NCBI GenBank assembly: GCA_024710585.1
Contig: JANJUM010000062.1
Location: 1-45,855, forward strand
Origin: Desulforhopalus sp.
Lineage (GTDB): Bacteria; Desulfobacterota; Desulfobulbia; Desulfobulbales; Desulfocapsaceae
Direction of reading: 5' to 3'
DNA: 45,855 nucleotides
Below the pieces are notes generated by a model. The model searched no databases. It saw only the letters and a list, made by a program, of their open reading frames with translations, and was not told where the DNA came from. The stretch's first letter is position 1; each line of letters opens with the position of its first letter. Shown here one piece after another: positions 2,932 to 36,029 of the stretch. The position numbers and the translations under genes are program-made.

Positions 2932-3449
2932 ACGCCCGCCGACGGCATGTTGAGGCTGGCGTTATGCTCGTAGAGCCCGCCGTTGGACTGGTGGAAGTAG
3001 ATCAGCTCGACACCCCAGGAGGAAGACACTGGCAGGCGCAGCCCCACTTTCGAGGCGAAGAAGAAGGGGCCGCCGAGATCGTGCCTGGTGAACTTGCCCG
3101 CCTCGCTCATCAGGCCGAAACCGAGCCCGGCGAGGAACTCGAGGCGGGGGTGGAAATGCAGCACCAGCTCGGGAATGACGGCCACTTCGCCCAGAGTGGC
3201 GTCGTCGGCGTCATGTTCATGCACCATCCCCAGCGAGATTTCGATGGCGGAGGTCACCGACCTGCCCTTGCCGAAGCGGGTGGTGTAGGGCAGCGAGGGG
3301 CGATAGAGCAGCTCGTATCTGGCGATTGAGGTGTTGCCGAGCGCCTGCAGCCCGGCGCCGGCCCCCGCCTCGCCGGCAGAGGAGGAGCCGGCCAAAAACG
3401 ACAGCGATGCCGCTGTCAGGAGCAGCGGCAGGTAAGACAACGGTTTCAT
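2916..3449 (-). CDS. PagL-like outer-membrane lipid A 3-O-deacylase family protein
   Basis: 177 residues with an N-terminal signal peptide (MKPLSYLPLLLTAASLSFLA, cut near residue 25), amphipathic beta-strand-like segments and an aromatic C-terminal strand (VYFSL), as expected for a small beta-barrel. The motif FHQSN places His153 and Ser155 where PagL has its catalytic His and Ser. PagL removes the 3-O-linked acyl chain of lipid A at the outer membrane. The residue aligning with the catalytic Glu of Pseudomonas PagL, 12 residues after the Ser, is Asn167. Activity is therefore uncertain, although Asn may be common in distant family members. No clear ribosome-binding site. It overlaps the end of ppk tail to tail. 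Confidence 0.75.
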   Translation of the reverse strand: MKPLSYLPLLLTAASLSFLAGSSSAGEAGAGAGLQALGNTSIARYELLYRPSLPYTTRFGKGRSVTSAIEISLGMVHEHDADDATLGEVAVIPELVLHFHPRLEFLAGLGFGLMSEAGKFTRHDLGGPFFFASKVGLRLPVSSSWGVELIYFHQSNGGLYEHNASLNMPSAGVYFSL

Positions 3450-3479
3450 GGTCAGAAGGAAGTATTCTCGTCTTGCATG

Positions 3480-3504
3480 CCCCCGGCAGCGGTCATCCCG
3501 GGGG
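3480..3504 (-). terminator. Hairpin between the HDOD gene and the pagL-like gene
   Basis: CCCCCGG (3480-3486) and CCGGGGG (3498-3504) form a perfect 7-bp GC stem with an 11-base loop, 38 bases after the HDOD stop codon. No T-rich tract follows on either strand, so it may only slow polymerase or protect the mRNA end. Confidence 0.3.
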
Positions 3505-3541
3505 ACCTGGGAAAAGGATGGCAGGGCCGACAGCGGCCTGA

Positions 3542-4738
3542 TCAGAGGATGTCGGCCAACCGCACCGCATCGAGATAGTAGGTCTGCAGTTTTTCGGGGT
3601 CAAGGCACAGCTCGGCAAGCCTGCGGTCGACCTCCTCCCACTGGCAGCGCTCGTAGTTCTCCACCAGCTGCAGATAGGGCGCCAGGGCCCCGCTCCTGCC
3701 CACCAGGGCGTCGTGCACCTCGACGGACAGCGGCAGTCGCCCGACCAGGCTCTCCATGGGGGTGTCGAGCATGGCGTCGAGCAGGGAGAAGAGGCCAAGC
3801 ATGAACATCTCCCCCTCGCTGCACCCCACCTCCCCCGCCACCTGCGCGAGAAACTTGCCGCGAATCGCCGAGAGGCGCAGCAGCTCGTCCGGTTTCTGCT
3901 CCACCAGGCGGCCGGCGACAATCAGCGAGACGAACATGCGTATCCCGCGCTCGCCGAGGAAGGCCACCGCCTGGCGAATCGAGGCAACCGGGTGCACCCG
4001 GCCGAAATAGGCGGAGTTGAGGTAGTTGACCAGCTTGAAGGAGATGGCCGCGTCCTGGTTGATGAGCTCCTCGAGATGACGGAACTCCATGTCCTGGCGG
4101 TTGACCTCGCAGATCAGTCTGGCCGCGGTGAGCTGCCCCGGGGACACTTCGCGGTTCTTGAGGATCTCCGGCCTGGAGAAAAAATAGCCCTGGAAATAGT
4201 GGAAGCCGAGGTCCCGCGCGGCGATGAATTCCTCGTGGGTCTCGATCTTCTCGGCGAGAAAATGGCAGCGCCCCCCCTTGAGCCGCTTGATCATGGCGGC
4301 GATTTCCGGCAACGGGGTGAGACGGAAATCGATCTTGATGATCTTCGCCAGGTCGATCAGCGGCTGCAGGTTGTCGCGGAAGACGAAATCGTCGAGGGCC
4401 AGCGTGTAACCCTTTTTGGCCAACTCGCGGCAGGCGGCGACGACCTCCTCGGTGGGACGCACGTCCTCGAGGATCTCCACCACCACCTCGTTCTTGGCAA
4501 ACAACGTCGGCACGCGGCGCAGCAGCAAGTCCTCGGTGAAGTTGATGAACACCTGCCGGCCGCCGGAGATGCGCTCGATGCCGACGGTGAAGAACGACGA
4601 CGACAAGAGGCTGGAGGTGGCGGTTTCGCCATCGACGCCGGGGAAGGCGTTGGACATGCCGGTGCGAAAGAGCAGCTCGTAGGCGTACAGCTTCTTGTTT
4701 TTATGGAAAATCGGCTGCCGCGCCACAAAGGCATCCAT
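3542..4738 (-). CDS. Degenerate EAL + HDOD domain signalling protein
   Basis: 398 residues from ATG 4738 (MDAFVARQPIF...), chosen because GGGGGA sits just upstream and this is the usual start of the family; an in-frame ATG 17 codons earlier is possible. Residues 1-200 are an EAL-like domain in which the EAL signature reads ELLFR and the metal-binding DD motif reads DDFVF. That is the divergent YuxH type, generally not an active c-di-GMP phosphodiesterase. Residues about 200-398 are an HDOD domain (NQDAAISFKLVNYLNSAYFG; AVAFLGERGIRMFVSL), a protein-interaction/signalling module lacking the HD metal site. It is probably a cytosolic regulator binding nucleotide or partner proteins. It has its own promoter at 4789-4818. 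Confidence 0.88.
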   Translation of the reverse strand: MDAFVARQPIFHKNKKLYAYELLFRTGMSNAFPGVDGETATSSLLSSSFFTVGIERISGGRQVFINFTEDLLLRRVPTLFAKNEVVVEILEDVRPTEEVVAACRELAKKGYTLALDDFVFRDNLQPLIDLAKIIKIDFRLTPLPEIAAMIKRLKGGRCHFLAEKIETHEEFIAARDLGFHYFQGYFFSRPEILKNREVSPGQLTAARLICEVNRQDMEFRHLEELINQDAAISFKLVNYLNSAYFGRVHPVASIRQAVAFLGERGIRMFVSLIVAGRLVEQKPDELLRLSAIRGKFLAQVAGEVGCSEGEMFMLGLFSLLDAMLDTPMESLVGRLPLSVEVHDALVGRSGALAPYLQLVENYERCQWEEVDRRLAELCLDPEKLQTYYLDAVRLADIL

Positions 4739-4788
4739 CTGGGGTCCCCCGTTTAAGAAATGAGAACTGTTACCACAACCTTTGCTCA

Positions 4789-4818
4789 AGTATACACAAA
4801 TGAGCGATAGGGAAACAA
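4789..4818 (-). promoter_or_regulatory. Sigma70-like promoter of the EAL/HDOD gene
   Basis: On the minus strand: TTGTTT (4818-4813), an 18-base spacer, TATACT (4794-4789). The predicted start near 4782 leaves a 44-base leader with a GGGGGA ribosome-binding site. The -10 is nearly consensus. A loose inverted repeat (AGGGAAA 4809-4815 with TTTCCCT 4835-4841) overlaps the -35. Confidence 0.6.
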
Positions 4819-4874
4819 GGGTTGCCAGGCCTTTTTTCCCTGTCGTGCCTCGCCCCGGTCACGCTCGGCAAAGG

Positions 4875-5855
4875 TTAGAGGAGCCCTTCCTGCCGATACC
4901 AGCGGGCGGTTGCTTCGAGACCCCGCCGCAGGTCGAACTGCGGCGTGTAGCCCAGCAGGCGAACCGCCTTGGAGATATCGAAAGAGCGACTCTTGGTGAA
5001 GAAATCGACGCGACGGCGGTAGATGGGCGGCTCAACGCCGAGGGGGATGCAGATCTTCTCGCAGAGGGACCCGGCCAGCTGAAAGGGCCACGCCGGGAGG
5101 TGGATCTTGCGGTCGGCCTTGCCGAGAATGGTGGAGATGGTGGCAAGCAGTTCGTTGAGCATCATGTTCTCGCTGCCGCCGATGATGAACACCTCGCCTG
5201 CCGCCTCCTCTCTCTCCGAGGCGAGCAGAAAGCCCTGCACCAGGTCGTCGATATAGACCATGTGATAGAAGATCCTGCCGTCGCCGAGCACCGGCGAGAC
5301 CGGCTTGGCGGCGAGGCGAAAGAGCTTGAGCAGGCGCATGTCGCCCGGCCCGTAGATGGCGGTGGGGCGAATCACCGCCAGGGCCAGGCCGTTTTTGGCA
5401 GCGAACTCGCGGGCGAACAGCTCGCCCTCGAGCTTGGTGCGCTGGTAGATGTCGGCCGGGGCATAGGGCGACTCCTCGTTGGCCGGGGGATTCTTGACGT
5501 CGCCATGGACGCCTACGGTGCTGCAGTGCACGAAGCGTTTCACCCCGTGGCGCAGGGCGGCCTCGAGGAGATGGCGGGTGCCGCCGACGTGGATATCGTG
5601 GTAGTCTTGGTCGACGGAGGAGGCGGAGCGATACATGGCGGCGATGTTGAAGACCTTGTCGACCCCGGCGACGGCGCCATCCACCGCCCGCGGGTCGCGG
5701 ATGTCGCCTTCCAGCACCTCCAGGCCGGGCTGCGCGGGCAGGGTCACCCGCCGGCGGCTGCGCACCAGCAGCCTGACGCCGACGCCCTGGGCGAGCAGGG
5801 TGGCGCTGAGGTTATGTCCGGTGAAGCCGGTGCCTCCGGTGACGAGTACGTTCAT
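4875..5855 (-). CDS. NAD(P)-dependent sugar epimerase/dehydratase (extended SDR)
   Basis: 326 residues. The N-terminus has the Rossmann motif GGTGFTG; the catalytic Tyr/Lys pair is YQRTK, preceded by a conserved Ser/Thr (HCSTVGV); IRPTAIYGPGD is the substrate-side signature of extended SDRs. It resembles the HpnA/3-beta-HSD-like branch, which acts on sugar or sterol-like substrates, so the exact reaction is open. The start ATG 5855 overlaps the stop of the glycosyltransferase (ATGA), implying coupled translation as last gene of the operon beginning at 9464. An activated-sugar substrate is the simplest reading beside a glycosyltransferase, but that is inference. Confidence 0.88.
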   Translation of the reverse strand: MNVLVTGGTGFTGHNLSATLLAQGVGVRLLVRSRRRVTLPAQPGLEVLEGDIRDPRAVDGAVAGVDKVFNIAAMYRSASSVDQDYHDIHVGGTRHLLEAALRHGVKRFVHCSTVGVHGDVKNPPANEESPYAPADIYQRTKLEGELFAREFAAKNGLALAVIRPTAIYGPGDMRLLKLFRLAAKPVSPVLGDGRIFYHMVYIDDLVQGFLLASEREEAAGEVFIIGGSENMMLNELLATISTILGKADRKIHLPAWPFQLAGSLCEKICIPLGVEPPIYRRRVDFFTKSRSFDISKAVRLLGYTPQFDLRRGLEATARWYRQEGLL

Positions 5856-16115: not shown

Positions 16116-17783
16116 TTATGCCATTTCCCGCCGCGCTTCCGGCCAGCGGCGCTCGCTGACCTCGTCGGTGGAGTAGTCGGGCAGGAGGATCGGGGCCACC
16201 GCCGGCTCGGTAATGCCGGCGTCGGCGAGTTCCTTCTCGAATTTGACCACATGGTCGAGGGTCAGCTTCTTCAACTGCACCCCGGAAGTGACATATTGGG
16301 CGGCATTCTTGCCGGCGCGGCGGCCAAAGGTGATGATGTCCTGCAGGCTGTTGCCCATGAGGCGGTTCTCGCCATGGACACCGCCGATGGCCTCACCGGC
16401 GGCATAGAGCCCGGGCACCACCGTCTCGGTGTTGCCGTTGACGTTGATGCCGCCGTTCTGGTAGTGCAAGGTCGGGAAGACGAGCATCGGCTCTTTGGAG
16501 ATATCGATGCCATGGCGCTCGAACTGGATGAACTTGGCGGGCAGTTCCTTCTTCACCGTGCCCGGGCCGTGCAGTTCCTCGATCATCGGCGAATCGAGCC
16601 ACAGGCCGACGCGGCCGGTGGGGGTCATGATGCCCTTGCCTTTCTCCAGCGCCTCGCGGATCAGCTCAGCCGACTCGACATCGCGCGGCTCGAGCGGGAA
16701 GCAGAACTGCTCGCCGTCGATATTGAGCACGTGGGCACCGAGACCACGCACCTTCTCGGTGATCAGCAGGCCGACGTTCTGCTCGGGGTAGGAGACCCCG
16801 GTGGGGTGGTACTGGGTGGAGTGGAGATCCTTGTTGCCGACCCCGGCCCGGTAAGCCATGACCACCCCGTCCATGGTGGCGCCATAGTGGTTGGTGGTGG
16901 CGAAACCCTTGATATGGAGGCGGCCAAAGCCGCCGGTGGCGATGATCACCGCCTTGGCGCGCACCACCGAGAACTCCTTGGTCTCCATGTTGTAGAGGAT
17001 GGCTCCACCGCATTTGCCGTCTTCGTCGAGGAGCAGTTCCACCGCCGGGCTGAATTCGAGGGTGGTGATCTGCTCGGCGCGGTTGCGCACCTCGTCGCGG
17101 ACCACGCGCATGATCTCGGCGCCGGTCATGTCGCCGGAGGACTGCAGCCGCTTGCGCGAGGAGCCGCCGCAGTGGCGGACGACGGTGCGACCATCCTCGT
17201 GCTTGTTGAACATCATGCCCAGGCTTTCCAGCCAGGCGATGGACAGCGGGGCGTCGTTGGCCAGAGCCGCAACCAGGTCGCGCTGGTTGGCGAAGTGCCC
17301 GCCGCCGATGGTATCCATAAAGTGGTAGTAGGGGGAGTCGCACTCGTGGGTGGCCGCCTGGATGCCGCCCTCGGCCATGATGGTGTTTGAGTCGCCGTGG
17401 CGCAGCTTGGTGGAAATGATCACCTTGCAGCCGCCCTGGGCGGCCATGATCGCCGCCGAAGTGCCGGCGCCGCCGCCGCCGATGACCAGCACGTCGGTGT
17501 CATAGTCGATCTTGCTCAGATCGACCTTATCCGGCCGCACCAGCGACTTCGATTCGAGCAGTCGGGCCACGCCCTCCTGATAGACATCGCCCTTGTTGGG
17601 GCCCACCGCCACCTGACGCTTGCCGCTCTCCTGGTAGTCGGGATGATACTTGGCCAGCACCTCGGCCCGCTCGGCCATGGTCAGGGCCGGGTAGTTTTCG
17701 TTGCGTTTGGCCATTGCCACCCGCTCGGGGCGAGTGGCCTCGACCCGCTTGATGAGTTCCTTCAGTTCCGGAGTATATGCCAT
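16116..17783 (-). CDS. Fumarate reductase/succinate dehydrogenase flavoprotein, thiol:fumarate-reductase (TfrA)-like
   Basis: 555 residues, last gene of a four-gene redox operon. GGGGAG (102-107) is the FAD dinucleotide fold. Catalytic regions are intact: HPTG, TEKVRG, HYQNGGI and ENRLMGNSLQD match the substrate-binding His/Arg residues of FrdA/SdhA. The motif that carries covalent FAD in SdhA/FrdA (S-H-T/S) reads SNT here, with Asn133 for His, so FAD should be non-covalent, as reported for TfrA and L-aspartate oxidase. Expected reaction: fumarate/succinate interconversion, with electrons passed via the Fe-S subunit to HdrBC-like subunits. AAGGAGAG precedes the ATG. It is cytosolic or peripheral, with no Tat signal. 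Confidence 0.88.
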   Translation of the reverse strand: MAYTPELKELIKRVEATRPERVAMAKRNENYPALTMAERAEVLAKYHPDYQESGKRQVAVGPNKGDVYQEGVARLLESKSLVRPDKVDLSKIDYDTDVLVIGGGGAGTSAAIMAAQGGCKVIISTKLRHGDSNTIMAEGGIQAATHECDSPYYHFMDTIGGGHFANQRDLVAALANDAPLSIAWLESLGMMFNKHEDGRTVVRHCGGSSRKRLQSSGDMTGAEIMRVVRDEVRNRAEQITTLEFSPAVELLLDEDGKCGGAILYNMETKEFSVVRAKAVIIATGGFGRLHIKGFATTNHYGATMDGVVMAYRAGVGNKDLHSTQYHPTGVSYPEQNVGLLITEKVRGLGAHVLNIDGEQFCFPLEPRDVESAELIREALEKGKGIMTPTGRVGLWLDSPMIEELHGPGTVKKELPAKFIQFERHGIDISKEPMLVFPTLHYQNGGINVNGNTETVVPGLYAAGEAIGGVHGENRLMGNSLQDIITFGRRAGKNAAQYVTSGVQLKKLTLDHVVKFEKELADAGITEPAVAPILLPDYSTDEVSERRWPEARREMA

Positions 17784-17819
17784 GATCTCTCTCCTTGATC
17801 TCGATCTGGTACGTCGATG

Positions 17820-18614
17820 TTATAGATATTGAGTCTCTTTCGGCATCCACTTGCCGCCTTCGAAGAAATCCGGTTCACGCTCGCGCTCGACGTAACGTTT
17901 CTCCAGCTCCTCCTTGCTCATCCCGGCGAGGTCGCCGAGCATGGTCTGGTACTTGCCGGACTCGATTTCGGAAACGCGCTTCTGCAGATGCTCCGCCTGG
18001 GGCAGGATATATTTGCCGTAGACGCGGCGGGCGAGTTGGGCGACATGGTACTGGGGGATCTCGCCGAGACAGCGGCTGGCGCAGAGCCCGCACTGGATGC
18101 AGTCGAAGGAGATTTTCGCCGCCCTGGCGATGTCGCCCTGCTTGATGGCCGAGATATAGCCGAGGACGTCTACATCCATGGGGCAGGCCTTGGTGCACTG
18201 GTTACAGGCGACACAGCGAAACACCTCGGGGTAGAGGGCGTGGATGGCCTCCGCCAGGCCGCCGATGGCGTTGATGTCGTAGGATGCGCGATTGGCCGGA
18301 TAGAAGGGGATCTGCGCCAGGTACATGTTGGCCTCGACCACCGTCTGGCAGGCCAGGCCGAAGTGCAGCTTGTAGTCCCCGGCCATGCGGTAGACGGTCG
18401 GGCAGGCGCCGCAGATGCCGCCGCGGCAGCCGGCGCCGCGCAGGAACTTGAAGCCGGCGAACTCCATGGCCTTCATGATGGTCAGGGTCTCGGGCACCTC
18501 GTACTTCTTGCCCATGATATAGACGGGGATGGCCTTGGCGCCCTCGGGCAGGATGGCCCGGTCTCCGGTGGCCACCCTGGGGGTGGTCTTCTTGCTTTCG
18601 TTGGCGTTACACAT
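17820..18614 (-). CDS. Iron-sulfur subunit (FrdB/SdhB-like, with [2Fe-2S] and two [4Fe-4S] sites)
   Basis: 264 residues. CRGGICGACP is the second part of a [2Fe-2S] ferredoxin domain (about 33-100). CVACNQCTKACPMD and CIQCGLCASRCLGE (about 133-190) are two full 4x Cys [4Fe-4S] motifs. In FrdB/SdhB one cluster is [3Fe-4S] and the last helix contacts a quinone-binding anchor, whereas here both motifs are of the [4Fe-4S] type and no membrane anchor gene is present. Electrons therefore probably go to the HdrB/C-like neighbours. It lies 36 bases before the flavoprotein and 56 bases after the HdrB-like gene; GGAGATA is the ribosome-binding site. Confidence 0.87.
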   Translation of the reverse strand: MCNANESKKTTPRVATGDRAILPEGAKAIPVYIMGKKYEVPETLTIMKAMEFAGFKFLRGAGCRGGICGACPTVYRMAGDYKLHFGLACQTVVEANMYLAQIPFYPANRASYDINAIGGLAEAIHALYPEVFRCVACNQCTKACPMDVDVLGYISAIKQGDIARAAKISFDCIQCGLCASRCLGEIPQYHVAQLARRVYGKYILPQAEHLQKRVSEIESGKYQTMLGDLAGMSKEELEKRYVEREREPDFFEGGKWMPKETQYL

Positions 18615-18670
18615 GGTTTGATATCTCCAAAGAGTGCTGGGATGTTTGCAGAGGCCGTCGACTTCAGGGT

Positions 18671-19555
18671 CTAGACCGCAGCCAGACAGGCTTTTTCGCG
18701 CAGCAGGTCGACCCCGACCGCCTCGTTCATCTCAAAGTGGCAGGTGGCCGCGTCGATGCCCAGGGCCAGCGCCAGCAGCTGGGTGAAATAGAAGGTCGGC
18801 AGCGGCGAGGCAATGGCCGATGCCGCAAGCAGCCGTCCCTGCTGCTTGCCGAGGTTGTACTCGCACAAGGGGCAGCTGGTGGCCAGCGCCTCGACACCGG
18901 CGGCGGCGGCCTGGTTGAGGATATTCGCCGCGGCGCTGTTGTTGCCCTCGGGAGAGGCCAGCACCTGATAGGAGCCGCAGCACTTGTCGGCGGCGGCGAA
19001 GGGTTGCACGGTGGCGCCGAGGGCCTCGAGCAGCTCGCTCATCAGGGCGAAGCTGCCGAAGGGCTCGATGCCCACTTCGGCCGGGCGCTGCAGGGTGCAG
19101 CCATAGTAGGGGGCGACGCGCAGGCCGCTGAGCGGGGCCGCGACCTTGTCGCGCACCTTGTCCCAGCCGACCGTCTCCTTGAGGAAGGTGAGGTAGTGCA
19201 CCACCTCGACCTCGCCGGCGTAGTCGATCTCCTCGTCCATGAAGCGGTTGATGGTGTCGCGCCTGACCGGATCGGTCTTCATCATCAGGTTGGCCCTGGC
19301 CAGGGTGTTGTAGCACATCGAGCACAGGGTCACCAGCTGGTTGGCTCCCTGCTCCTTGGCGCGCACCAGGTTGCGCACCGGCCCCACCTGGTGGATGAGG
19401 TCGTCGGCGGTGAGCGAGTGCACGGCACCGCAGCAATTCCACCTGTCGATCTCCCGCACCTCGACCCCCAGGGCCTCGAGGGCGGCAACAGCGGCCCGGT
19501 CGAGATTCCTGGCCTTGGTTTTCAGAGTGCAGCCCGGATAGTAACTGATCTTCAT
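18671..19555 (-). CDS. Heterodisulfide reductase subunit B-like protein (two CCG domains)
   Basis: 294 residues from ATG 19555 with AAGGAGAG five bases upstream. Two complete Cys-rich (CCG) modules are visible: YPGCTLK...NCCG...CSMC and YYGCTLQ...KCCGSY...CPLC, the pattern that binds the unusual non-cubane Fe-S clusters of HdrB. In methanogens HdrB reduces CoM-S-S-CoB; in bacteria such subunits serve thiol/disulfide, quinone or formate-linked redox. There is no membrane helix, so a membrane partner or soluble thiol electron carrier is missing from the window. It starts eight bases after the HdrC-like gene. Confidence 0.87.
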   Translation of the reverse strand: MKISYYPGCTLKTKARNLDRAAVAALEALGVEVREIDRWNCCGAVHSLTADDLIHQVGPVRNLVRAKEQGANQLVTLCSMCYNTLARANLMMKTDPVRRDTINRFMDEEIDYAGEVEVVHYLTFLKETVGWDKVRDKVAAPLSGLRVAPYYGCTLQRPAEVGIEPFGSFALMSELLEALGATVQPFAAADKCCGSYQVLASPEGNNSAAANILNQAAAAGVEALATSCPLCEYNLGKQQGRLLAASAIASPLPTFYFTQLLALALGIDAATCHFEMNEAVGVDLLREKACLAAV

Positions 19556-19563
19556 CGCTCTCC

Positions 19564-19971
19564 TTAACTGGTGAATTTTCTGAATCCGGCCACCAGGGCG
19601 ATCTGCGGCATTTCCGCAACGGTCTCCCGGGGCAGCGCGGACGGTTCGATATGGTTGCGGCTCTTGCGCAGCACCTGCTGACGCAGGGCTTCCATGACCC
19701 TGGCGATATCGATGCCACGCGGGCATTTCACCGAACAGGCGTGACAGGAGGCGCATTTCCAGTAGCTGTTGACCCCGGAGAGGCGGTCGAGCAGGCCGAA
19801 CTGGGCCAGATGCATGACCCGGCGCGGACTGATGTCCATCTCCTGCGCCATGGGGCACATGCCGGTGCAGGTGGCGCACTGCATGCAGAGCTTGACGCTC
19901 TCGCCGCTCAGTTCCTTCAGCCTGGCGATCGCCGGCAGCGACGGCGTCTTGGCTGTCATCTCGATTGTCAT
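19564..19971 (-). CDS. Heterodisulfide reductase subunit C-like ferredoxin
   Basis: 135 residues with two [4Fe-4S] motifs, CMQCATCTGMCPM (about 29-41) and CASCHACSVKCPRG (about 73-86), as in HdrC. It should pass electrons between the HdrB-like subunit and the FrdB-like subunit. It is the first gene of the operon, with a leader of about 165 bases from the promoter at 20143-20170. A GGAA about eight bases upstream is a weak ribosome-binding site; an in-frame ATG at codon 5 is an alternative start. Confidence 0.85.
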   Translation of the reverse strand: MTIEMTAKTPSLPAIARLKELSGESVKLCMQCATCTGMCPMAQEMDISPRRVMHLAQFGLLDRLSGVNSYWKCASCHACSVKCPRGIDIARVMEALRQQVLRKSRNHIEPSALPRETVAEMPQIALVAGFRKFTS

Positions 19972-21668: not shown

Positions 21669-21701
21669 GGCAGTCCCAGAATGGTCGCCCCGACAGATCC
21701 T

Positions 21702-21737
21702 GGCCACCCCGCCAGGCAAACCAGCGGCGGGGCGGCC
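21702..21737 (-). promoter_or_regulatory. Leader hairpin upstream of the VKOR gene
   Basis: CCCCGCC (21707-21713) pairs with GGCGGGG (21726-21732), flanked by GGCC on both sides. The single mismatch becomes a G-U pair only in minus-strand RNA, giving a 12-bp stem about 34 bases before the VKOR start codon. The rest of the 259-base divergent region to elaA shows no gene. Confidence 0.45.
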
Positions 21738-21927
21738 AATGACCAGGGGTCAGGGCTGTAACGGATCGTTTTACGGAATTTTGTCACCCATTAAAGACAA
21801 TTCCCGACTGAACCGCAACTGCGAAGAGACCTCGGCGGAAGCCAAAGTTCCGTTTTCCATCCTTCGACCAGGGGAGCGCGGGCCATAGCCCATCTCCCCG
21901 GCAATTTTAAAGAAAGTCCTCTACGAT

Positions 21928-22401
21928 ATGAACATGGCAGAAAACATTCTCTGGCAATGGCTCCCCTTTGCCGCCCTTGGCGTCGATGACCTCTACGCCA
22001 TTCTCGCCCTGCGCCAGGAGGTCTTCGTGGTCGAGCAGCGCTGCGCCTACCTCGACTGCGACGGCAGCGATCAGGAGGCCCTGCACCTCGTCGGGTGGAG
22101 CGGCGACGGACGATCTCGGCGCCCACTGGCCTATCTGCGGGTACTGCCACCGGCTGGCGACGGCCTGCCGGTGCGCATCGGCCGTCTGCTCACCCACGCC
22201 GATATCCGCCACCGCGGGGTGGCGCGCGACATGCTGCGGCTAGCCATAGAACGACTCGAGACCTTCTATCCGGGGCGGCCCATCGCCATTTCAGCGCAGC
22301 AGTATCTGCTCGGCTTTTACGGGCGTTTCGGATTTTACGCCACCTCGCCACCCTACCTCGAGGACGGAATCCCCCATGTGGATATGATCCGCAGCCCGTG
22401 A
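21928..22401 (+). CDS. elaA: ElaA-type GNAT acetyltransferase
   Basis: 157 residues. LRQEVFVVEQRCAYLDCDGSDQEA is the diagnostic ElaA segment; RIGRLLTHADIRHRGVARDML is the acetyl-CoA-binding motif A (R-x-x-G-x-G/A); QQYLLGFYGRFGF is the C-terminal GNAT strand/helix. ElaA proteins are small cytosolic N-acetyltransferases of unknown in vivo substrate. Start: ATG 21928 or ATG 21934; neither has a good Shine-Dalgarno. It is divergent from the VKOR gene and looks monocistronic. Confidence 0.9.
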   Translation: MNMAENILWQWLPFAALGVDDLYAILALRQEVFVVEQRCAYLDCDGSDQEALHLVGWSGDGRSRRPLAYLRVLPPAGDGLPVRIGRLLTHADIRHRGVARDMLRLAIERLETFYPGRPIAISAQQYLLGFYGRFGFYATSPPYLEDGIPHVDMIRSP

Positions 22402-22450
22402 ACAGGGCGAACCATGGAGTGACGAATACCGGTCACCCTGCCGACAGCGA

Positions 22451-22479
22451 TTGGCAAAACTGGAGAAATACGATACTTT
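22451..22479 (+). promoter_or_regulatory. Candidate promoter of the Csd6-like/Csd4-like gene pair
   Basis: TTGGCA (22451-22456), a 17-base spacer, TACTTT (22474-22479); the predicted start near 22486 gives a leader of about 60 bases. Confidence 0.4.
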
Positions 22480-22547
22480 GATCGCTTCTCCGCATATGGC
22501 ATCCCGGGCAGCGCCCTTCGAACCTTACTTTGTCCCGCATCCCTTCA

Positions 22548-24008
22548 ATGAACTCGCCTTTCGCCTTTCTCGTCCCGCTCCTCCTCCTTGTCCACAGCCT
22601 TTTTCCCTTCGAGGCGACCTTCGCCGCCGATCCCCTCGCTGGCGACGAAAAGACTCTGCGCCTCTTTTTCCACCCCTCTGAAAAGCCCTCCCACCTCCTT
22701 CTCGTGGAAAAAAAACGGCAGAAGCTGACACTCTTCGAGGTGCAAGGGACACTGCGCCCGCTCAGGGAATTCGCCTGCGCCACCGGTGAAAACATCGGCA
22801 ACAAACGCAGCAGTGGCGACTCGCGCACCCCCGAGGGCGTCTATTTCATCACCGAAGTGTACGAAGACAAGAAGATCACCGTCTTCGGCAGCCGCGCCTT
22901 TCACCTCGACTACCCCAACGTCTTCGACAGCCATGCCGGACGCCAGGGTGACGGCATCTTCATCCACGGCACCAACAAGAAGCTGACCCCTAACAGCACC
23001 AACGGCTGCATCACCCTCGACAACCGCGACCTCGACGCACTGGCCCCCTACCTGACGGTGGGCAGCGTGCCAGTCATCGTCCTCGACGCTACCAGCGACG
23101 CCACCCTGGCGGATGCGGTACCCCTGCGCAAAGACGACGGGGTGACGCAGCTCCTGCTCGAAAAGCTCTCCCTCAACGCGGAGGCCATCGCCGGCGAGGC
23201 TATCGACAGCTTGTTCGCAGTGCAGCTCGGCGATCACCTGGTGGTCTCCCTCGGTTTCTACATCTTCCCGGACCGGAGCACCCGCTACAGCGAGCGAAGG
23301 CGGGCCTATCTGAGCCGCACCGCCGGGGGGTGGTGGCGGTCCCTGCACAGCGTTTTCAGCCAGAATTCCGGACCCACCCTCCTCGCACAGAAGCCGCTTA
23401 AGAACGACAATGTCGTCAAAATCCGCGACATAGCCATCGTCGAGGCGGCCATGGCTGCGCAACTGCTCACACCCGGGGGCGGCGGCTCCACCATCGACGC
23501 GTCAGCCGCCACCCCCGGCAACATCCCCCCCGTTACGGCCACCGCACCGCCAGCTGCCGCCCGCACCGCCGCGGCCCCCGCCGACGACAGCCGCATCTCT
23601 GTGGCCGGCGCCAAGGGCCGGGAGGGGGACAAGGCGAAGGAAAAAGCCGCCAAAGCGGCTCGCCCGCCGGCCGACGACAGGGTCGACGAGGTGCTGGCCT
23701 TCGTCGAAAAATGGCGCTCCTCCTGGGCTGCCAAGGACCTCGAGACGTATATGGCCTGCTACAGCCCCAGTTTCACCAGCGACAACCTCGACAAGGCGGG
23801 GTGGCGGGCGCGAAAGGCCTTCCTCAACGACAAGTACAAGTTCATCAAGGTCAAGCTCTCCGAGCTCAAAGTGGTGCCGTCGTCCACCGGGGCCACGGTC
23901 TCCTTCCACCAGACCTACCGCTCCGATCAACTGCAGACCAGCGGCCGCAAGACCCTGCAGCTGGTCAACCGCAAAAACCGCTGGTTCATAGAACGTGAAG
24001 CGATGTGA
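22548..24008 (+). CDS. L,D-transpeptidase/carboxypeptidase-fold murein enzyme with NTF2-like C-terminal domain (Csd6/Pgp2-like)
   Basis: 486 residues from ATG 22548, with a signal peptide (residues 1-31, ...EATFA). The YkuD catalytic domain (about 55-190) shows HLDYPNVFD, then His140 in IHGTN and Cys154 in STNGCITL, the H...S-x-G-C pattern. A central region (200-300) is followed by an Ala/Pro-rich linker (about 305-370) and an NTF2/SnoaL-like domain (about 378-486; FVEKWRSSWAAKDLETYMACY). This order is that of Helicobacter Csd6 and Campylobacter Pgp2, which trim muropeptide tetrapeptides to tripeptides and set cell curvature. Periplasmic. The next gene is the Csd4-like partner; its possible GTG start overlaps this stop. 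The enzyme could alternatively be a true L,D-transpeptidase. Confidence 0.88.
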   Translation: MNSPFAFLVPLLLLVHSLFPFEATFAADPLAGDEKTLRLFFHPSEKPSHLLLVEKKRQKLTLFEVQGTLRPLREFACATGENIGNKRSSGDSRTPEGVYFITEVYEDKKITVFGSRAFHLDYPNVFDSHAGRQGDGIFIHGTNKKLTPNSTNGCITLDNRDLDALAPYLTVGSVPVIVLDATSDATLADAVPLRKDDGVTQLLLEKLSLNAEAIAGEAIDSLFAVQLGDHLVVSLGFYIFPDRSTRYSERRRAYLSRTAGGWWRSLHSVFSQNSGPTLLAQKPLKNDNVVKIRDIAIVEAAMAAQLLTPGGGGSTIDASAATPGNIPPVTATAPPAAARTAAAPADDSRISVAGAKGREGDKAKEKAAKAARPPADDRVDEVLAFVEKWRSSWAAKDLETYMACYSPSFTSDNLDKAGWRARKAFLNDKYKFIKVKLSELKVVPSSTGATVSFHQTYRSDQLQTSGRKTLQLVNRKNRWFIEREAM

Positions 24009-24037
24009 ACCGACCCTTCTCTGACCGGAAGCCCGCC

Positions 24038-25624
24038 ATGCCAAAACCGATCATGGTTCGCACCCTCCTCGCGCTCGTCATGCTCTTCGCCTGCCTCGCC
24101 GCCCCAGCGCAGGGCACCCCCGCCGAGCCGCCACGTCACCAGAGTCTGCACGACGTCTACCTGGCGAACACCGAGCACGAGCTCCATATCTACCGCATTT
24201 ACGGCAAGGAACCCGGCAAGACGATGATGCTCATCGGCGGCATCCAGGGCGACGAGCCGGGCGGCTACCTCACCGCCGATCTCTACGCCGACATCACCCT
24301 GAGAAAGGGCAACCTCATCGTCGTCCCCCGCGCCAACTTCTACTCCATTCTCCTCAATCAGCGCGACGGCATGACCGGCGACATGAACCGCAAGTTCGCC
24401 ACCGCCTCGAAAGAGGAGCGCAGCATGGAGCAGGAGATCGTCTCCATCCTCAAGAAGCTGATCGGCGAAGCCGACTGCCTCCTCAACCTCCACGAAGGCT
24501 CCGGCTTTTTCAGCGAGCAGTGGATCAGCGACGAAGAAAACCCGGAACGTTTCGGCCAGTCGATCATCTACGACGCCGCCAGCTTCCAGGGCAACAAGCG
24601 ACAGCACACCCTCGCTCTGGCCGAGATGGCCGCCACGGTGGTCGACAAGGTCAACCGCCAGATCGACAACCCCCGCCACCATTTCCGCCCCAACAACCAT
24701 AACACGGTCTCGGACAGCTCACGCTTCCTCGAACAGCGCAAGTCGGCGACCTACTACGCCCTCACCGAGGAGAACATTCCCGCCTTCGGCGTCGAAACCT
24801 CAAAGTCGATCCGCCCCAACGCCGCCAAGGTCGCCCTGCAAAAGCTGGTCATCAACGCCTTCATGGAGGAGTTCGGCATCGTCGCCGAGACTCCGGGGCT
24901 GCATGTGGAGGAAGTCCGCCTGCACTATGTGCTGGTCAAGGTCAACAACGGCCACCCCTACGCCATCGCCAACGGCGGCGAACTTCGCGTCAATACGGGG
25001 GACGAAGTGATGGTCACCGACATCCTCGCCAATCTCGACCGTGGCCTGACCGCCGACTTTCTCGACATGGGCAGCCATAACGATACCAGGTTGCCATTCC
25101 GCATCGCCGAGCCTGCCCGGGTGGTGATACGCAAAGATGCCGAGGTCTGCGGCCATATCACCCTCCTCACCGGCATGGCTCTCCCCTCCGGGAGGAGGAC
25201 GGCCAAATCGACACTAGCGGAAAAAGAGGGCTCCGAGGAGAAAGTGCCGCCCCCGACGAAAGCGGAACCACCGCTCGCCGAGCTGCGCGCCGAGCGGTTG
25301 CTGGTCAACGTCGATGGCAATCTGGTGACCATCGGTGATGGCGAGGAACTCGAGGTACCCAGAGACAAGTTGATGGTCATCAAGGGCGTCCGTTCCAATA
25401 TCAGCCGTCTCGACAAAAAAATTGCCGTCAATCTCAAAGGCTTTTCGCCCGAGAAAAACCAGAACCTCGGCAACGACATCAACTTCCCCTTCCTCCCCGA
25501 ACACGATCTGTGGACAAGGTTTTCCGAAGACCGTAAAGGGGAACGCTATCCCATCGAAGCCACCTACGGCGATAGGGAAATCGGCAGATTCTGGCTAAAA
25601 CTCCACTCGAGTGGTGGAGAATAG
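24038..25624 (+). CDS. M99-family murein DL-carboxypeptidase (Csd4/Pgp1-like)
   Basis: 528 residues from ATG 24038 with a signal peptide (MPKPIMVRTLLALVMLFACLAAPAQG); a GTG at 24005 overlapping the upstream stop is an alternative start. The carboxypeptidase domain has GGIQGDEPGG with Gln70 and Glu73, and LNLHEGSGF with His152. This is the Q-x-x-E...H zinc site, with the atypical Gln ligand known from Helicobacter Csd4, and the same 82-residue spacing from Gln to His as I recall for Csd4. Two further domains follow (about 285-390 and 410-528), as in Csd4. Csd4 removes the terminal m-DAP from uncrosslinked tripeptides and is needed for helical shape. Periplasmic, co-transcribed with the Csd6-like gene. 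Confidence 0.9.
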   Translation: MPKPIMVRTLLALVMLFACLAAPAQGTPAEPPRHQSLHDVYLANTEHELHIYRIYGKEPGKTMMLIGGIQGDEPGGYLTADLYADITLRKGNLIVVPRANFYSILLNQRDGMTGDMNRKFATASKEERSMEQEIVSILKKLIGEADCLLNLHEGSGFFSEQWISDEENPERFGQSIIYDAASFQGNKRQHTLALAEMAATVVDKVNRQIDNPRHHFRPNNHNTVSDSSRFLEQRKSATYYALTEENIPAFGVETSKSIRPNAAKVALQKLVINAFMEEFGIVAETPGLHVEEVRLHYVLVKVNNGHPYAIANGGELRVNTGDEVMVTDILANLDRGLTADFLDMGSHNDTRLPFRIAEPARVVIRKDAEVCGHITLLTGMALPSGRRTAKSTLAEKEGSEEKVPPPTKAEPPLAELRAERLLVNVDGNLVTIGDGEELEVPRDKLMVIKGVRSNISRLDKKIAVNLKGFSPEKNQNLGNDINFPFLPEHDLWTRFSEDRKGERYPIEATYGDREIGRFWLKLHSSGGE

Positions 25625-25627
25625 TTC

Positions 25628-25656
25628 TTGACAATGACAATCATTCCTATTATTGT
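25628..25656 (+). promoter_or_regulatory. Consensus promoter with a Fur box in the spacer
   Basis: TTGACA (25628-25633), a 17-base spacer, TATTGT (25651-25656). Positions 25630-25648 match the 19-base Fur consensus at 14 positions (GACAATGACAATCATT core). GACAAT (25630-25635) and ATTGTC (25652-25657) also form an outer inverted repeat. A Fur-type repressor bound here would cover both promoter boxes, making the rubredoxin operon iron- (or peroxide-) responsive. The promoter lies immediately after the Csd4-like stop. Confidence 0.75.
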
Positions 25657-25712
25657 CAGCGCATGGTTCTTACAGCAACCCACCCACTCAACCATGGCAA
25701 GAGGAGGCGATT

Positions 25713-25871
25713 ATGCAGAAATGGGAATGTCCGTGCGGCTATATCTACGATCCGGCAGAGGGAGACTATGAACACGGCGTCGAGCCGGGCACGGCCTGGG
25801 AGGATGTCCCGGCCGACTGGGTCTGCCCGAAATGCGGCGCGGCCAAAGAAGATTTCTGGAAGCATTCCTGA
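25713..25871 (+). CDS. Rubredoxin with a shortened N-terminal metal knuckle
   Basis: 52 residues from ATG 25713, with a strong AGGAGG. The sequence follows rubredoxin closely ([35 protein letters not shown]). The C-terminal knuckle CPKCG is normal. The N-terminal one reads ECPCGY, i.e. Cys-x-Cys instead of Cys-x-x-Cys. The single Fe(Cys)4 site should still form but with altered geometry; such a variant may exist in related anaerobes. It transfers electrons in the cytosol, often to rubrerythrin, superoxide reductase or rubredoxin:oxygen oxidoreductase. It shares the Fur-box promoter with the next gene, 39 bases downstream. Confidence 0.93.
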
Positions 25872-25910
25872 TCAACGAGCTCCCCTCTCACCTCATCAAG
25901 GAGAACGGAC

Positions 25911-26240
25911 ATGAAAATATCGGTCGATAGAAACGTCGTCGAAATCAGCCCGGAATCGAAGCAGGAAGAGGCCAGCCTCGACACCCTGTGGAAAGTGATC
26001 ATTGACTGCTATGGCAACAACAAGAAGCTGGTGCCCATGGGGCAGTTCGTCCCCGGCGTCGACACCCTGGCCCGCTTTAACATCGAAGGCATCAAGGGCG
26101 GTCCGACCGTCTATTCTCCGGACAAAAAAGCCCCGCAGGATGACACCTACTACTGCGCCATCTGCAACAAGTATATGAACGTCAAGGGCGGCGACCCGGT
26201 GCCCCTGTGCTGTGGCCGCGATATGGAGTGTATCGACTGA
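25911..26240 (+). CDS. Unknown N-terminal domain fused to a desulforedoxin-like metal site
   Basis: 109 residues from ATG 25911, with AAGGAGAA eight bases upstream. The C-terminal 30 residues carry Cys82-x2-Cys85-x14-Cys100-Cys101-Gly, the Fe(Cys)4 arrangement of desulforedoxin and of the N-terminal domain of desulfoferrodoxin. Here it is at the C-terminus, behind about 75 residues I do not recognise (MKISVDRNVVEISPESKQEE...). There is no superoxide-reductase domain (no His-rich site), so this is not a neelaredoxin or desulfoferrodoxin. Co-transcribed with rubredoxin under a Fur-type promoter and followed by a strong terminator. A role in anaerobic electron transfer or oxidative-stress response is inferred from context. 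Confidence 0.83.
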   Translation: MKISVDRNVVEISPESKQEEASLDTLWKVIIDCYGNNKKLVPMGQFVPGVDTLARFNIEGIKGGPTVYSPDKKAPQDDTYYCAICNKYMNVKGGDPVPLCCGRDMECID

Positions 26241-33569: not shown

Positions 33570-36029
33570 ATGCACCTTGCCTACAGAAGTATACTGACCT
33601 GCTGGTTCCTCCTGCTCTGTTCCTGCGCCCCACTGCCCCAGACACCGAGCCTGCGGCTCTCCGGGGTGGCGCTGACCCTCGAGCGACCGGCAGAGGAGAT
33701 CGTCGCCATGTCCCTGGCGCAGCATGGTGACCGGCTGCTCGCCCTCAGCGGTCCGGCCACCACGGGGGACGGTGCTGTCTCCTCCGCCAGAGGCGCCACC
33801 CTGCACCTCTGGGACCTCGGTCTGGGACGGCGCCTGCGGGCCATTCCCCTCGACGGCCTGGCCCTCTCGGCCACGGCCGCCATCTCCCCGGACGGCACCA
33901 AGGCGCTGGTCGGCGGCAAGGCCAAAAAGGGCGCATCGAGCCTCGAACTGTGGGATCTCGACCAGGGCACGAGGGTGCGCAGCTTCCCCAACCTCGACAA
34001 GGAGCTGACCACCGTCGCCTTCTCCCCCGACGGCCATACCCTCATGGCCGGCCACGGTACCTATATCTACCTCTTCGACGCCGCCAGCGGTGAGTTCCTC
34101 CGCCAGTTCGACACCGGCCACACTTCGTCCTTGCCGGGGCAGCCCAAGGCTGTCCACGCCGTTTTCACCCCCGACGGCAGCTATATCGTCAGCGGCGGCC
34201 CCGACGCCTCGGTGAAGATGTGGGATGTCAACACCACCGAAAAGGTGCAGCACTGGGCCGGCCACACGCGTAGCCTGCAGGGGGGCATCACCGGTATCGC
34301 CGTCTCCTCGGACAGCTCCTTCATCTTCACCAGCTCTGCCGGCGACGGCCTGGTGCGTCGCTGGAACGTCGCCGACGGCAGGGTCCTCGCCACCTATTCC
34401 GGCAACGAGGCCCTGTGGCAGGGGGTATGGGGAACCGCACTCTCCCCCGATGACCGCCTCGGCTTCGTCCTCTCCACGACGCCAGCCATCTATGACCTCG
34501 AGACCGGCAAGCTTGTGGCGCGTCTTACCGGCGGCCCGGCAGGCAGCGGAGGGACGACTCCCTCCACTTTGGCCACCGGCATCTTCGACCGCAGCGGCAA
34601 ATCGCTCTTTCTCCCCATGGCCGGGGCGGGGATCAAGGTCTACGACACTGTCACGGGAAGGGAGCGGGCGACGCTGACCAGCTTCACCGATGGTGAATGG
34701 CTGGCGATCACCGCCGAAGGCTACTTCAACGGCTCGCCGCGGGGGCCGCGCGACCTCGCCATCGAGTCCGGCGGCCGGCGCCTTGCCCTGGAGCGGCTCT
34801 TCGACCCCTTCTTCCGCCCCGACGTGGTCATTGCCACCCTGCACGGGGAAGAGACGCGCCCCATCGCACCGCTGACCCTCGCCGAAGCGGTCTCCAGCCC
34901 GCCGCCGACGGTGAGCTTCACCTCCGTCCCCGGCGACGCCGACGGCACCGCGGCCAAGGTCTGCTACCAGGCCAGCGGCCCTGGCGGCATCGGCGAGGTG
35001 CGCCTCTACCACAACGGCAAGCTCATCGTCTCCGACGGATACTACCGCGACATCGTCAAGACTCCGCCGATCAACATCCCCCTCATGGCGATGAACGGCT
35101 CGGCCATCCACGAACGGATGAGCCAGGTGTGGAGCAACACCACCGGCAACCCGATGCCCCTGGTCAGCCACGAAAAAGGCAACCACTTCAGCGACTGCAA
35201 GGAGATCGACCCGGTGGCCGGGGAGAACGAGCTCTCGCTGGCCGCCTTCAACAAGGGCAACACCCTGCAGAGCCCGGCGGTGACCACGCGCTTTCATGCC
35301 GCCAAGGCGCCCACCCCCCACCTCTATATTCTCACCATCGGCATCAACAAGTACCGCGAGCGGGCGGTTAACCTGCGCTTTGCCGCCAAAGACGCCGCCA
35401 GCGTTCGTGCCCGCCTCGCCGAGAGGGCGGCGGGGTTGTTCTCTCCCGCCGCCGTGCACCACGAGACCCTCGACAACGAGCGGGCCGGCAAGGCGGCGAT
35501 CATCAAAAAGATCAACGAGCTGTCACGGATCGTCAACCCCCACGACAGCTTCGTCCTCTACTTCGCCGGGCACGGCGTCCTCCTCCAGGACCAGTACTAC
35601 CTGCTCACCCACGACTACGACGGCAATCTGGCCGAAAACACCCTGCTGAGCTCCAACGAACTTGTAGACATTTCCAAGAAGATCAAGGCGCTGAGGCAGT
35701 TCGTCATCATCGACTCCTGCCATGCCGGAGGCACCGACGACATCGTCGGCAGCCTCTACGAGGCGCGCCTCGGGGTACTGGCGCGCAAGATGGGGGTGCA
35801 TCTCCTCACCGCCGCCGGCTCGGTGCAGGAAGCCCTCGACGGCTATGGGAAAAACGGCCTCTTCGCCCACGCCCTGCTCAACGGCATGGGCGGATCGGTA
35901 ACCGGGGTCGAGGATCTGGTGCGGCGCACCCTGGAGACCAGCGCCAGCCTGCGCGACAAGACCGGGGTCACCCAGGTGCCATTGTTCTTCCCCTATGGCC
36001 GGGACTTCCTCCTCTTTCGCGCCGAATGA
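33570..36029 (+). CDS. WD40-repeat lipoprotein with C-terminal caspase (C14) domain
   Basis: 819 residues. The N-terminus (MHLAYRSILTCWFLLLCSCAP) looks like a lipoprotein signal with the acceptor Cys at about residue 19. Residues about 45-370 form a WD40-like propeller (TLHLWDLG, LELWDLDQG, YLFDAASGE, VKMWDVN, VRRWNVADG, IYDLETG). Residues about 440-570 look Ig-like. The caspase fold (about 590-819) has His668 in YFAGHGV and Cys717 in IDSCHAGG, both intact. Bacterial C14 peptidases of this layout are mostly uncharacterised; most caspase-like proteins studied in bacteria cut after Arg/Lys or act in defence. Here the predicted location is periplasmic/outer-membrane facing, so a cytosolic defence role is unlikely. 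No toxin or defence gene adjoins it. Confidence 0.87.
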   Translation: MHLAYRSILTCWFLLLCSCAPLPQTPSLRLSGVALTLERPAEEIVAMSLAQHGDRLLALSGPATTGDGAVSSARGATLHLWDLGLGRRLRAIPLDGLALSATAAISPDGTKALVGGKAKKGASSLELWDLDQGTRVRSFPNLDKELTTVAFSPDGHTLMAGHGTYIYLFDAASGEFLRQFDTGHTSSLPGQPKAVHAVFTPDGSYIVSGGPDASVKMWDVNTTEKVQHWAGHTRSLQGGITGIAVSSDSSFIFTSSAGDGLVRRWNVADGRVLATYSGNEALWQGVWGTALSPDDRLGFVLSTTPAIYDLETGKLVARLTGGPAGSGGTTPSTLATGIFDRSGKSLFLPMAGAGIKVYDTVTGRERATLTSFTDGEWLAITAEGYFNGSPRGPRDLAIESGGRRLALERLFDPFFRPDVVIATLHGEETRPIAPLTLAEAVSSPPPTVSFTSVPGDADGTAAKVCYQASGPGGIGEVRLYHNGKLIVSDGYYRDIVKTPPINIPLMAMNGSAIHERMSQVWSNTTGNPMPLVSHEKGNHFSDCKEIDPVAGENELSLAAFNKGNTLQSPAVTTRFHAAKAPTPHLYILTIGINKYRERAVNLRFAAKDAASVRARLAERAAGLFSPAAVHHETLDNERAGKAAIIKKINELSRIVNPHDSFVLYFAGHGVLLQDQYYLLTHDYDGNLAENTLLSSNELVDISKKIKALRQFVIIDSCHAGGTDDIVGSLYEARLGVLARKMGVHLLTAAGSVQEALDGYGKNGLFAHALLNGMGGSVTGVEDLVRRTLETSASLRDKTGVTQVPLFFPYGRDFLLFRAE

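Follow-up and report, generated by a model that had tools for sequence, protein, structure and literature searches.

Two adjacent genes on contig JANJUM010000062.1 of Desulforhopalus sp. (45,855 nucleotides; this whole stretch is called the window below), one encoding a YkuD-NTF2 protein (gene 1) and the other an M99 carboxypeptidase (gene 2), are a real, conserved and probably functional murein-trimming pair. The M99 enzyme falls outside the clade of Helicobacter pylori Csd4 (clade A) and into its sister clade (clade B), whose members usually have a YkuD-NTF2 gene upstream, whereas the M99 genes of clade A lack this neighbor in 12 out of 12 places. We consider it fairly likely that the pair is a conserved periplasmic unit that shortens murein stem peptides from tetra- to tri- to dipeptides and so affects wall structure and shape, most plausibly curvature. 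The analysis followed a sequence-only reading of the window, which had likened the two products to Csd6 and Csd4 of H. pylori (Pgp2 and Pgp1 of Campylobacter jejuni). The families, active sites and folds behind that likeness hold, but the M99 protein belongs to the sister clade of Csd4's and the YkuD protein is closest in sequence to Bd1075 of Bdellovibrio bacteriovorus.

Domains, folds and active sites of the two proteins

The two co-directional neighbors described at first reading are real open reading frames (ORFs), and the N-terminus of each product looks, by eye, like a signal peptide. In the gene 2 product, PF17033 (Peptidase_M99) matches residues 60-281 with 110.7 bits (cut-off 27), and about 245 further residues follow. 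The M99 assignment, with Gln70, Glu73 and His152 as metal ligands and a Gln-His spacing of 82 residues, is borne out by this match and by the alignment of the three residues to Csd4 Gln46, Glu49 and His128. Arg109, Asn117 and Arg118 align to Csd4 Arg86, Asn93 and Arg94, and the general base, Glu253, aligns to Glu222; the roles of these Csd4 residues are described in PMC4220969. Each of their equivalents is retained by at least 115 out of 116 rows of clade B in our alignment. A phmmer search of the sequences in the Protein Data Bank (PDB) returned Csd4 at E 1.3e-25, and the AlphaFold model (mean pLDDT 87.1) has the three-domain architecture of Csd4. The VIA alignment of model residues 48-523 to H. 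pylori Csd4 gives Z 31.9 over 369 residues at 25% identity, with an rmsd of 15.6 that we read as domains shifted relative to each other. PF17033, the QxxE...H site, the equivalents of Arg86, Asn93, Arg94 and Glu222 and the fold are all common to the gene 2 product, Csd4 and Pgp1. Unlike Csd4 and Pgp1, the gene 2 product lies in a separate clade and has three pocket residues replaced: Csd4 W148, M203 and L207, which line or touch the meso-diaminopimelate (mDAP) site, Leu207 through its backbone N (PMC4220969), correspond to F172, Q233 and A237. An AspA/AstE or M14 enzyme was considered and rejected, as PF24827 reaches 24.1 bits, below its cut-off of 25, and as the next-best fold family, which is AspA/AstE-like, covers the catalytic domain only, at a Z of about 21 or less compared with 31.9.

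The gene 1 product had been described as a YkuD domain with an NTF2-like tail, with His140 and Cys154 singled out, and all of this was recovered: PF03734 (YkuD) matches residues 50-178 with 68.3 bits (cut-off 23.4), PF24125 (Cds6_C, an NTF2 domain) matches residues 382-483 with 66.4 bits (cut-off 27), and the triad of His140, Gly141 and Cys154 is conserved in 32, 31 and 32 out of 32 relatives, respectively. Both proteins had also been credited with the exact architectures of the Helicobacter and Campylobacter enzymes. This is true of the M99 protein, with its three Csd4 domains, but an exact Csd6-type architecture had to be rejected for the gene 1 product, whose model (mean pLDDT 82.4) and alignment include an extra alpha/beta domain of helices and four strands at about residues 184-272, between YkuD and NTF2, and a linker at about 307-374 that precedes the NTF2 domain, is modeled with low confidence and is probably disordered. 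Because relatives such as L115 carry two Cds6_C domains after YkuD, the extra domain looks, from the alignment, like a worn first NTF2 copy.

The best match of the gene 1 product among PDB sequences is by far Bd1075 (7o21; E 1.4e-35, 126 bits), followed by Csd6 (4xzz; 4.1e-18, 69 bits) and Pgp2 (6xj6; 5.2e-13, 52 bits). The comparison of predicted structures proposed with the sequence-only reading, which gave Z 31.9 to Csd4 for gene 2, placed the gene 1 model near Csd6 (Z 19.7), Pgp2 (18.5) and Bd1075 (18.2), and DpaA reached 14.9. Shared with Csd6 and Pgp2 are the YkuD and NTF2 domains, the His/Gly/Cys triad and the counterparts of Pgp2 Y233, F242, K257, K307 and probably E324. In Pgp2 these residues line the NTF2 pocket, and helicity is lost fully in the mutants Y233A, K257A and K307A and partly in F242A and E324Q (PMC8038945). 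The counterparts in the gene 1 product, Tyr401, Phe409, Lys423 and Lys468 (by alignment) and Glu484 (by position), are invariant in all 32 relatives; in the same 32-row alignment, conservation does not extend to Pgp2 K268 and Y297, which are NMR contacts, or to Pgp2 E107 of the active site. Unlike Csd6, the gene 1 product has, besides its extra domain, Phe in place of Trp158, and S89 and D135 in place of Glu110 and His155, which recognize the mDAP side chain (PMC4599014). Bd1075 shares both domains with the gene 1 product and likewise lacks Glu110 and His155, and a further likeness is that the gene 1 product has little room for the N-terminal dimerization domain of Csd6. However, Bd1075 is monocistronic and has one NTF2 domain (PMC8938487), whereas the gene 1 product has the extra domain, the long linker and an M99 partner.

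Two M99 clades and their linkage to YkuD-NTF2 genes

Among 297 Desulfobacterota genomes, PF17033 was found in 57 at E 0.001 and in 55 over its cut-off, compared with 0 out of 14 control genomes, and Cds6_C was matched in 74. M99 and Cds6_C occur together in 54 of the 297 genomes, M99 alone in one and Cds6_C alone in 20, and neither is over its cut-off in the remaining 222. Linkage, meaning a Cds6_C gene on the same strand at most 3 kb upstream, was counted by coordinates at 57 out of 59 M99 places (two below the cut-off were dropped), sorted by PF17033 score into clade A (at least 200 bits, 12 places), clade B (90-165 bits, 44 places) and one fragment. Such a gene precedes M99 in 39 out of the 44 clade B places, in none of the 12 clade A places and not at the fragment (clade A versus B, Fisher p 1e-8 with relatedness ignored). 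The search for the pair across Desulfobacterota that had been recommended at the outset thus returns a conserved gene unit, and on these counts we rejected a chance or local pairing. One clade A locus with an NTF2-gene neighbor tells against a strict clade rule: in L032, from the window's own family and outside the 12 places, M99 (1354-2805, + strand) and an NTF2-domain gene (2873-3685, - strand) are convergent.

The careful M99 tree comprises 46 rows, with L023, L026 and most clade B rows dropped; the full tree of 133 rows is a quick tree. In the 46-row tree clade B, which includes the window, is split from clade A plus Csd4 (100/100), Csd4 being a long branch. The gene 2 product therefore does not group with Csd4 as a Csd4/Pgp1 orthologue would. 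The pocket residues follow the same division. Clade B rows have F or Y for W148 (114/116), Q for M203 (115/116) and A for L207 (112/116), where some rows are one genome present in two collections; clade A rows retain W148 (15/15), M203 (13/15) and L207 (15/15), with L026 counted among the 15 although it stands on the clade B side, on a long branch, in the quick tree. Csd4 His126 is Asn in both clades (12/15 and 116/116 rows, respectively), and two genomes hold both M99 clades. Among the clade B YkuD partners, 56 out of 61 could be parsed for the Csd6 residues, and Glu110 and His155 were each retained in two; in ten YkuD-NTF2 proteins sampled from genomes with clade A M99 only (L141-L150), Glu110 is present in three and His155 in eight. 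A deep M99 relative in L023 (1153-2496, - strand) has His at the Gln metal-ligand site (GIHGDE) and is perhaps nearer an ancestral M14-like state.

Distribution and forms of the gene unit

The window belongs to a 4.15 Mb genome that is 95.8% complete and in which the gene 1 product is the sole YkuD protein found. Scanning named contigs with the clade B alignment revealed a relative at 520 loci, and we examined the best 80. Nearly all of these are metagenome-assembled genomes (MAGs), and only two out of the 80 are named as isolates with neither a MAG nor an uncultured label. Among the best 80, most are labeled Desulfobacterales, Desulfobulbaceae or Deltaproteobacteria, and some Nitrospirae, Glassbacteria, Gemmatimonadales or Latescibacterota, although MAG labels can be wrong. 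A YkuD-NTF2 profile match lies upstream of M99 in 61 out of the 80, limited to the NTF2 part in L095, L114 and L118 (contig end). In 16 of the 61, M99 immediately follows the partner, which is also the arrangement of the window; an ORF of at least 150 codons intervenes in 43, a gap in one, and L063 has a fusion. The other 19 loci show no partner upstream, seven of them with less than 3 kb of upstream sequence. In a separate comparison, of 19 clade B loci from the taxonomic order to which the window belongs, 14 have a match to the partner within the flanking 1.5 kb (a fusion in L041).

The intervening proteins, 17 of which were aligned (15 out of the 43, plus those of the partnerless L120 and L127), share a membrane segment, a stretch resembling a coiled coil and a C-terminal region that is conserved. 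None of the four that were scanned has a Pfam match over cut-off, and a search of the window's genome at E 0.01, which had no positive control, found no match to this gene. L104, a MAG labeled Desulfosudis oleivorans, is an example with this third gene between the pair, unlike the window (Table 1). In L063, a gene at 3792-4958, similar to one in L041, encodes an M99 domain without the Gln/Glu metal site fused to a Cds6_C NTF2 domain, and it is flanked by intact genes for YkuD-NTF2 and M99.

Within the window's family, M99 was found in 14 out of 93 genomes, four of which are clade A-like by score. Two single-contig genomes of 6.8 and 5.7 Mb (G493 and G494) have no M99. G473, of the same genus as the window, has the same M99 catalytic domain, residue for residue, as Desulforhopalus sp. 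IMCC35007 (L056), which NCBI files under Desulfocapsaceae, Desulfobulbales.

Gene arrangement and neighborhood

Gene 2 has two candidate starts (Table 1). The GTG would make it overlap the gene 1 stop by 4 bp; the ATG, which stands behind GGAAG and leaves a 29 bp gap, is the more plausible. The sequence-only reading had placed the genes under one promoter, which our scan does not support: a consensus search of 21700-26000 found no sigma70-like site on the + strand upstream of gene 1, and since a GNAT gene sits 146 bp upstream, the unit could start there. Five out of the 80 named loci have a GNAT relative: in L052, L056 and L057 it stands shortly before the YkuD frame, and in L053 and L054 it lies at a distance of over 2 kb. 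Scanning the window for Rfam families and tRNAs returned no matches.

Table 1. Coordinates of the gene pair and associated features (window positions unless a locus is named)
Feature	Position	Strand	Remarks
Gene 1, YkuD-NTF2 protein, Bd1075/Csd6/Pgp2-like	22548..24008	+	486 aa, ATG start; domain, sequence and fold matches
Gene 2, M99 carboxypeptidase	24038..25624	+	528 aa from ATG 24038; alternative GTG 24005; PF17033 and Csd4 fold
GNAT acetyltransferase, upstream, co-directional	21928..22401	+	146 bp before gene 1
Terminator-like hairpin, end of gene 2	25601..25619	+	weak; sites not above shuffles (3 found, shuffle mean 5.1)
Intervening membrane coiled-coil-like gene, example	L104:4102-4965		between YkuD-NTF2 and M99
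Intervening membrane coiled-coil-like gene, example	L076:4176-4865		between YkuD-NTF2 and M99

Several other features of the window were noted. A promoter match, TTGACA...TATTGT, lies at 25628-25658 within a palindrome-like TGACAATGACAATCATT...ATTATTGTCA, which we take to be Fur/PerR-box-like. Downstream of it are a rubredoxin-like ORF (25713-25871) and a desulfoferrodoxin-like ORF (25911-26240), both named by eye, the latter having no Pfam match. An ORF of 819 aa at 33570-36029 weakly matches the EACC1-associated caspase model (62.6 bits, cut-off 140). At 16116-19971 (- strand) there is a cluster of a fumarate-reductase-like FAD protein, an FeS protein, an HdrB/SdhE-like protein and a small Cys-rich ORF; the first three are under the NCBIfam family cut-offs among the matches listed.

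Other wall and shape genes in the genome

The window's genome also encodes three M23 peptidases and two bactofilins. On another of its contigs, in L138 (2248-3635), an M23 gene (2248-3213) is directly followed by a bactofilin gene (3216-3635), an order like that of csd1-ccmA. Since homologues of Csd1 and CcmA are widespread (PMC3310797), this M23-bactofilin pair is not specific to curved cells. Two further Cds6_C proteins of the genome (L139:366-1844, - strand; L140:1121-2728, + strand) have no YkuD match; one is helix-rich and one TPR-like by eye, and both have Pro/Ala-rich linkers. The Cds6_C NTF2 domain may be a general wall-targeting module.

Discussion

The non-epsilonproteobacterial setting stressed in the sequence-only reading is as described, but its novelty does not stand. 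The pair itself is not new, because pgp1 and pgp2 within 300 bp of each other were reported in 2014 from Nitratiruptor, Nautilia, a deltaproteobacterial Desulfococcus and Persephonella (PMC3961634), Pgp1/Csd4 is known from epsilon- and deltaproteobacteria (PMC3310789, PMC3310797), and Bd1075 is a YkuD-NTF2 LD-carboxypeptidase outside the epsilonproteobacteria that curves Bdellovibrio (PMC8938487). In the 2014 neighborhoods, too, members of both families are near neighbors in hosts other than Helicobacter and Campylobacter, and the excerpts of that paper contain no clades, pocket residues or counts. In H. pylori and C. jejuni, where the genes had been said at first reading not to form an operon, csd6/pgp2 does not lie beside csd4/pgp1, and in C. 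jejuni alr follows pgp2 (PMC3961634). What looks new is the split of clade B, its linkage and its pocket changes, none of which we met in the excerpts of the literature examined. We found no literature on this gene pair in Desulfobacterota, in a search that mostly did not extend to subscription journals.

We suggest the following mechanism. The YkuD-NTF2 protein would bind peptidoglycan via its NTF2 pocket and act as an LD-carboxypeptidase that converts tetrapeptides to tripeptides; the M99 enzyme would act next, as a metal-dependent DL-carboxypeptidase that converts tripeptides to dipeptides; and such trimming, if localized, would change wall structure and with it cell shape, most plausibly toward curvature. 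The basis of this reading is what this analysis established: the families and folds of the two proteins, their catalytic and pocket residues, and the linkage and co-occurrence of the genes across genomes. It is favored by the gene 1 product being the sole YkuD protein found in a 95.8% complete genome and by the report that Pgp2 makes the Pgp1 substrate in C. jejuni (PMC3961634). That the two reactions take place, in this sequence and in the periplasm, may be expected by analogy with Csd6, Pgp2 and Bd1075 on the one hand and Csd4 and Pgp1 on the other, and an effect of the pair on curvature is only suggested.

Several observations weigh against this reading. The linkage is incomplete: Cds6_C is missing from the 3 kb upstream at five out of the 44 clade B places, 12 out of the 80 named loci lack a partner despite at least 3 kb of upstream sequence, and among the 19 clade B loci of the window's taxonomic order, five show no partner in the flanking 1.5 kb, which a contig end truncates in one case. 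Within the window's genus the distribution of M99 is patchy (9 out of 15 genomes), and five of the six genomes without it are at least 93% complete. In addition, clade B carries the three-residue change in the M99 pocket, its YkuD partners rarely keep Glu110 and His155, and we found no measured activity for any clade B enzyme in the literature.

The alternative that survives best, and one that we regard as quite possible, is that the stems are trimmed as proposed, but for wall maintenance, length, flagellar passage or recycling in straight rods rather than for curvature. Every Desulfocapsaceae genus in Table 1 of PMC8497536 is a rod, including Desulfosediminicola flagellatus and Desulfosediminicola ganghwensis, which tells against curvature. 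Moreover, in Aeromonas caviae, which is a straight rod, a Csd6 homologue influences length and motility but not the gross shape of the cell (PMC4398505), and Pgp2 homologues also occur outside curved bacteria (PMC3961634). On the other hand, deletion of Pgp1, Pgp2, Csd4, Csd6 or Bd1075 straightens the cell (PMC8938487, PMC3961634, PMC3310789, PMC3310797, PMC8038945, PMC4398505), and the one carrier isolate whose shape is on record, Desulfocarbo indianensis SCBM (L111), is a vibrio (PMC4559730). Pgp1 has been described as occurring mainly in helical and vibrioid bacteria (PMC3310789), and Csd4/Pgp1 as conserved mainly in curved and helical ones (PMC3310789, PMC3310797); trimming of the wall has likewise been presented as a way to curve the cell. 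For Nautilia, the Nitratiruptor strains and Hxd3/Desulfosudis, the literature excerpts examined hold no usable statement of cell shape, and we found no shape for Desulforhopalus sp. IMCC35007. The curved cell shape predicted from the pair at first reading is therefore plausible and unproven.

It would also be conceivable, but in our view unlikely, that the substrate of the clade B M99 and of its YkuD partner has shifted from ordinary mDAP tri- and tetrapeptides to a modified, differently cross-linked or otherwise distinct stem. This would fit the replacement of W148, M203 and L207 in clade B rows and their retention in clade A rows, the rarity of Glu110 and His155 in clade B partners compared with the YkuD-NTF2 proteins that accompany clade A M99, and the presence of both M99 clades together in two genomes. 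However, clade B keeps its metal site, arginines and general base as in Csd4, and His126 to Asn is common to both clades. The change of L207 to Ala may matter little, because the contact of Leu207 with mDAP is through its backbone N. Similarly, the YkuD pocket changes need not mean a new substrate, because Bd1075, which has Asp at Glu110 and Ser at His155, is an active LD-carboxypeptidase; Bd1075 and Pgp2, which has Gly at His155, both act on their own walls. A slightly more doubtful idea is that the clade B M99 and its linked YkuD-NTF2 protein form a second, separately evolved wall-sculpting module distinct from the Csd4/Csd6 system, with the mDAP sites of both enzymes re-tuned together to fit a distinct stem or cross-link. 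This module would mostly be a two-gene operon in Desulfobulbales and elsewhere usually a three-gene one, with the membrane coiled-coil protein between, and some genomes would run both M99 types.

Finally, we consider it improbable that the gene 1 product is an L,D-transpeptidase (for 3-3 cross-links or lipoprotein attachment) or a DpaA-like lipoprotein-detaching enzyme that adjoins M99 for another reason: its YkuD family membership, the finding of no second YkuD protein in the genome, a match of 32 bits to the DpaA model NF040599, weak beside the cut-off of 365, and the DpaA fold match are in favor, but the LD-carboxypeptidases Bd1075, Csd6 and Pgp2 are much closer in sequence and overall fold, the NTF2 pocket is preserved, and the gene is strongly linked to M99, which by analogy needs tripeptides.

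Clade B is a sister clade of M99 enzymes in sulfate reducers and their relatives that is usually linked to the partner presumed to make its substrate. With M99 present in only 9 out of the 15 genomes of one genus, closely related bacteria that have or lack the pair can be compared, and whether stem trimming alone curves a cell becomes testable outside the pathogens in which it was first found.

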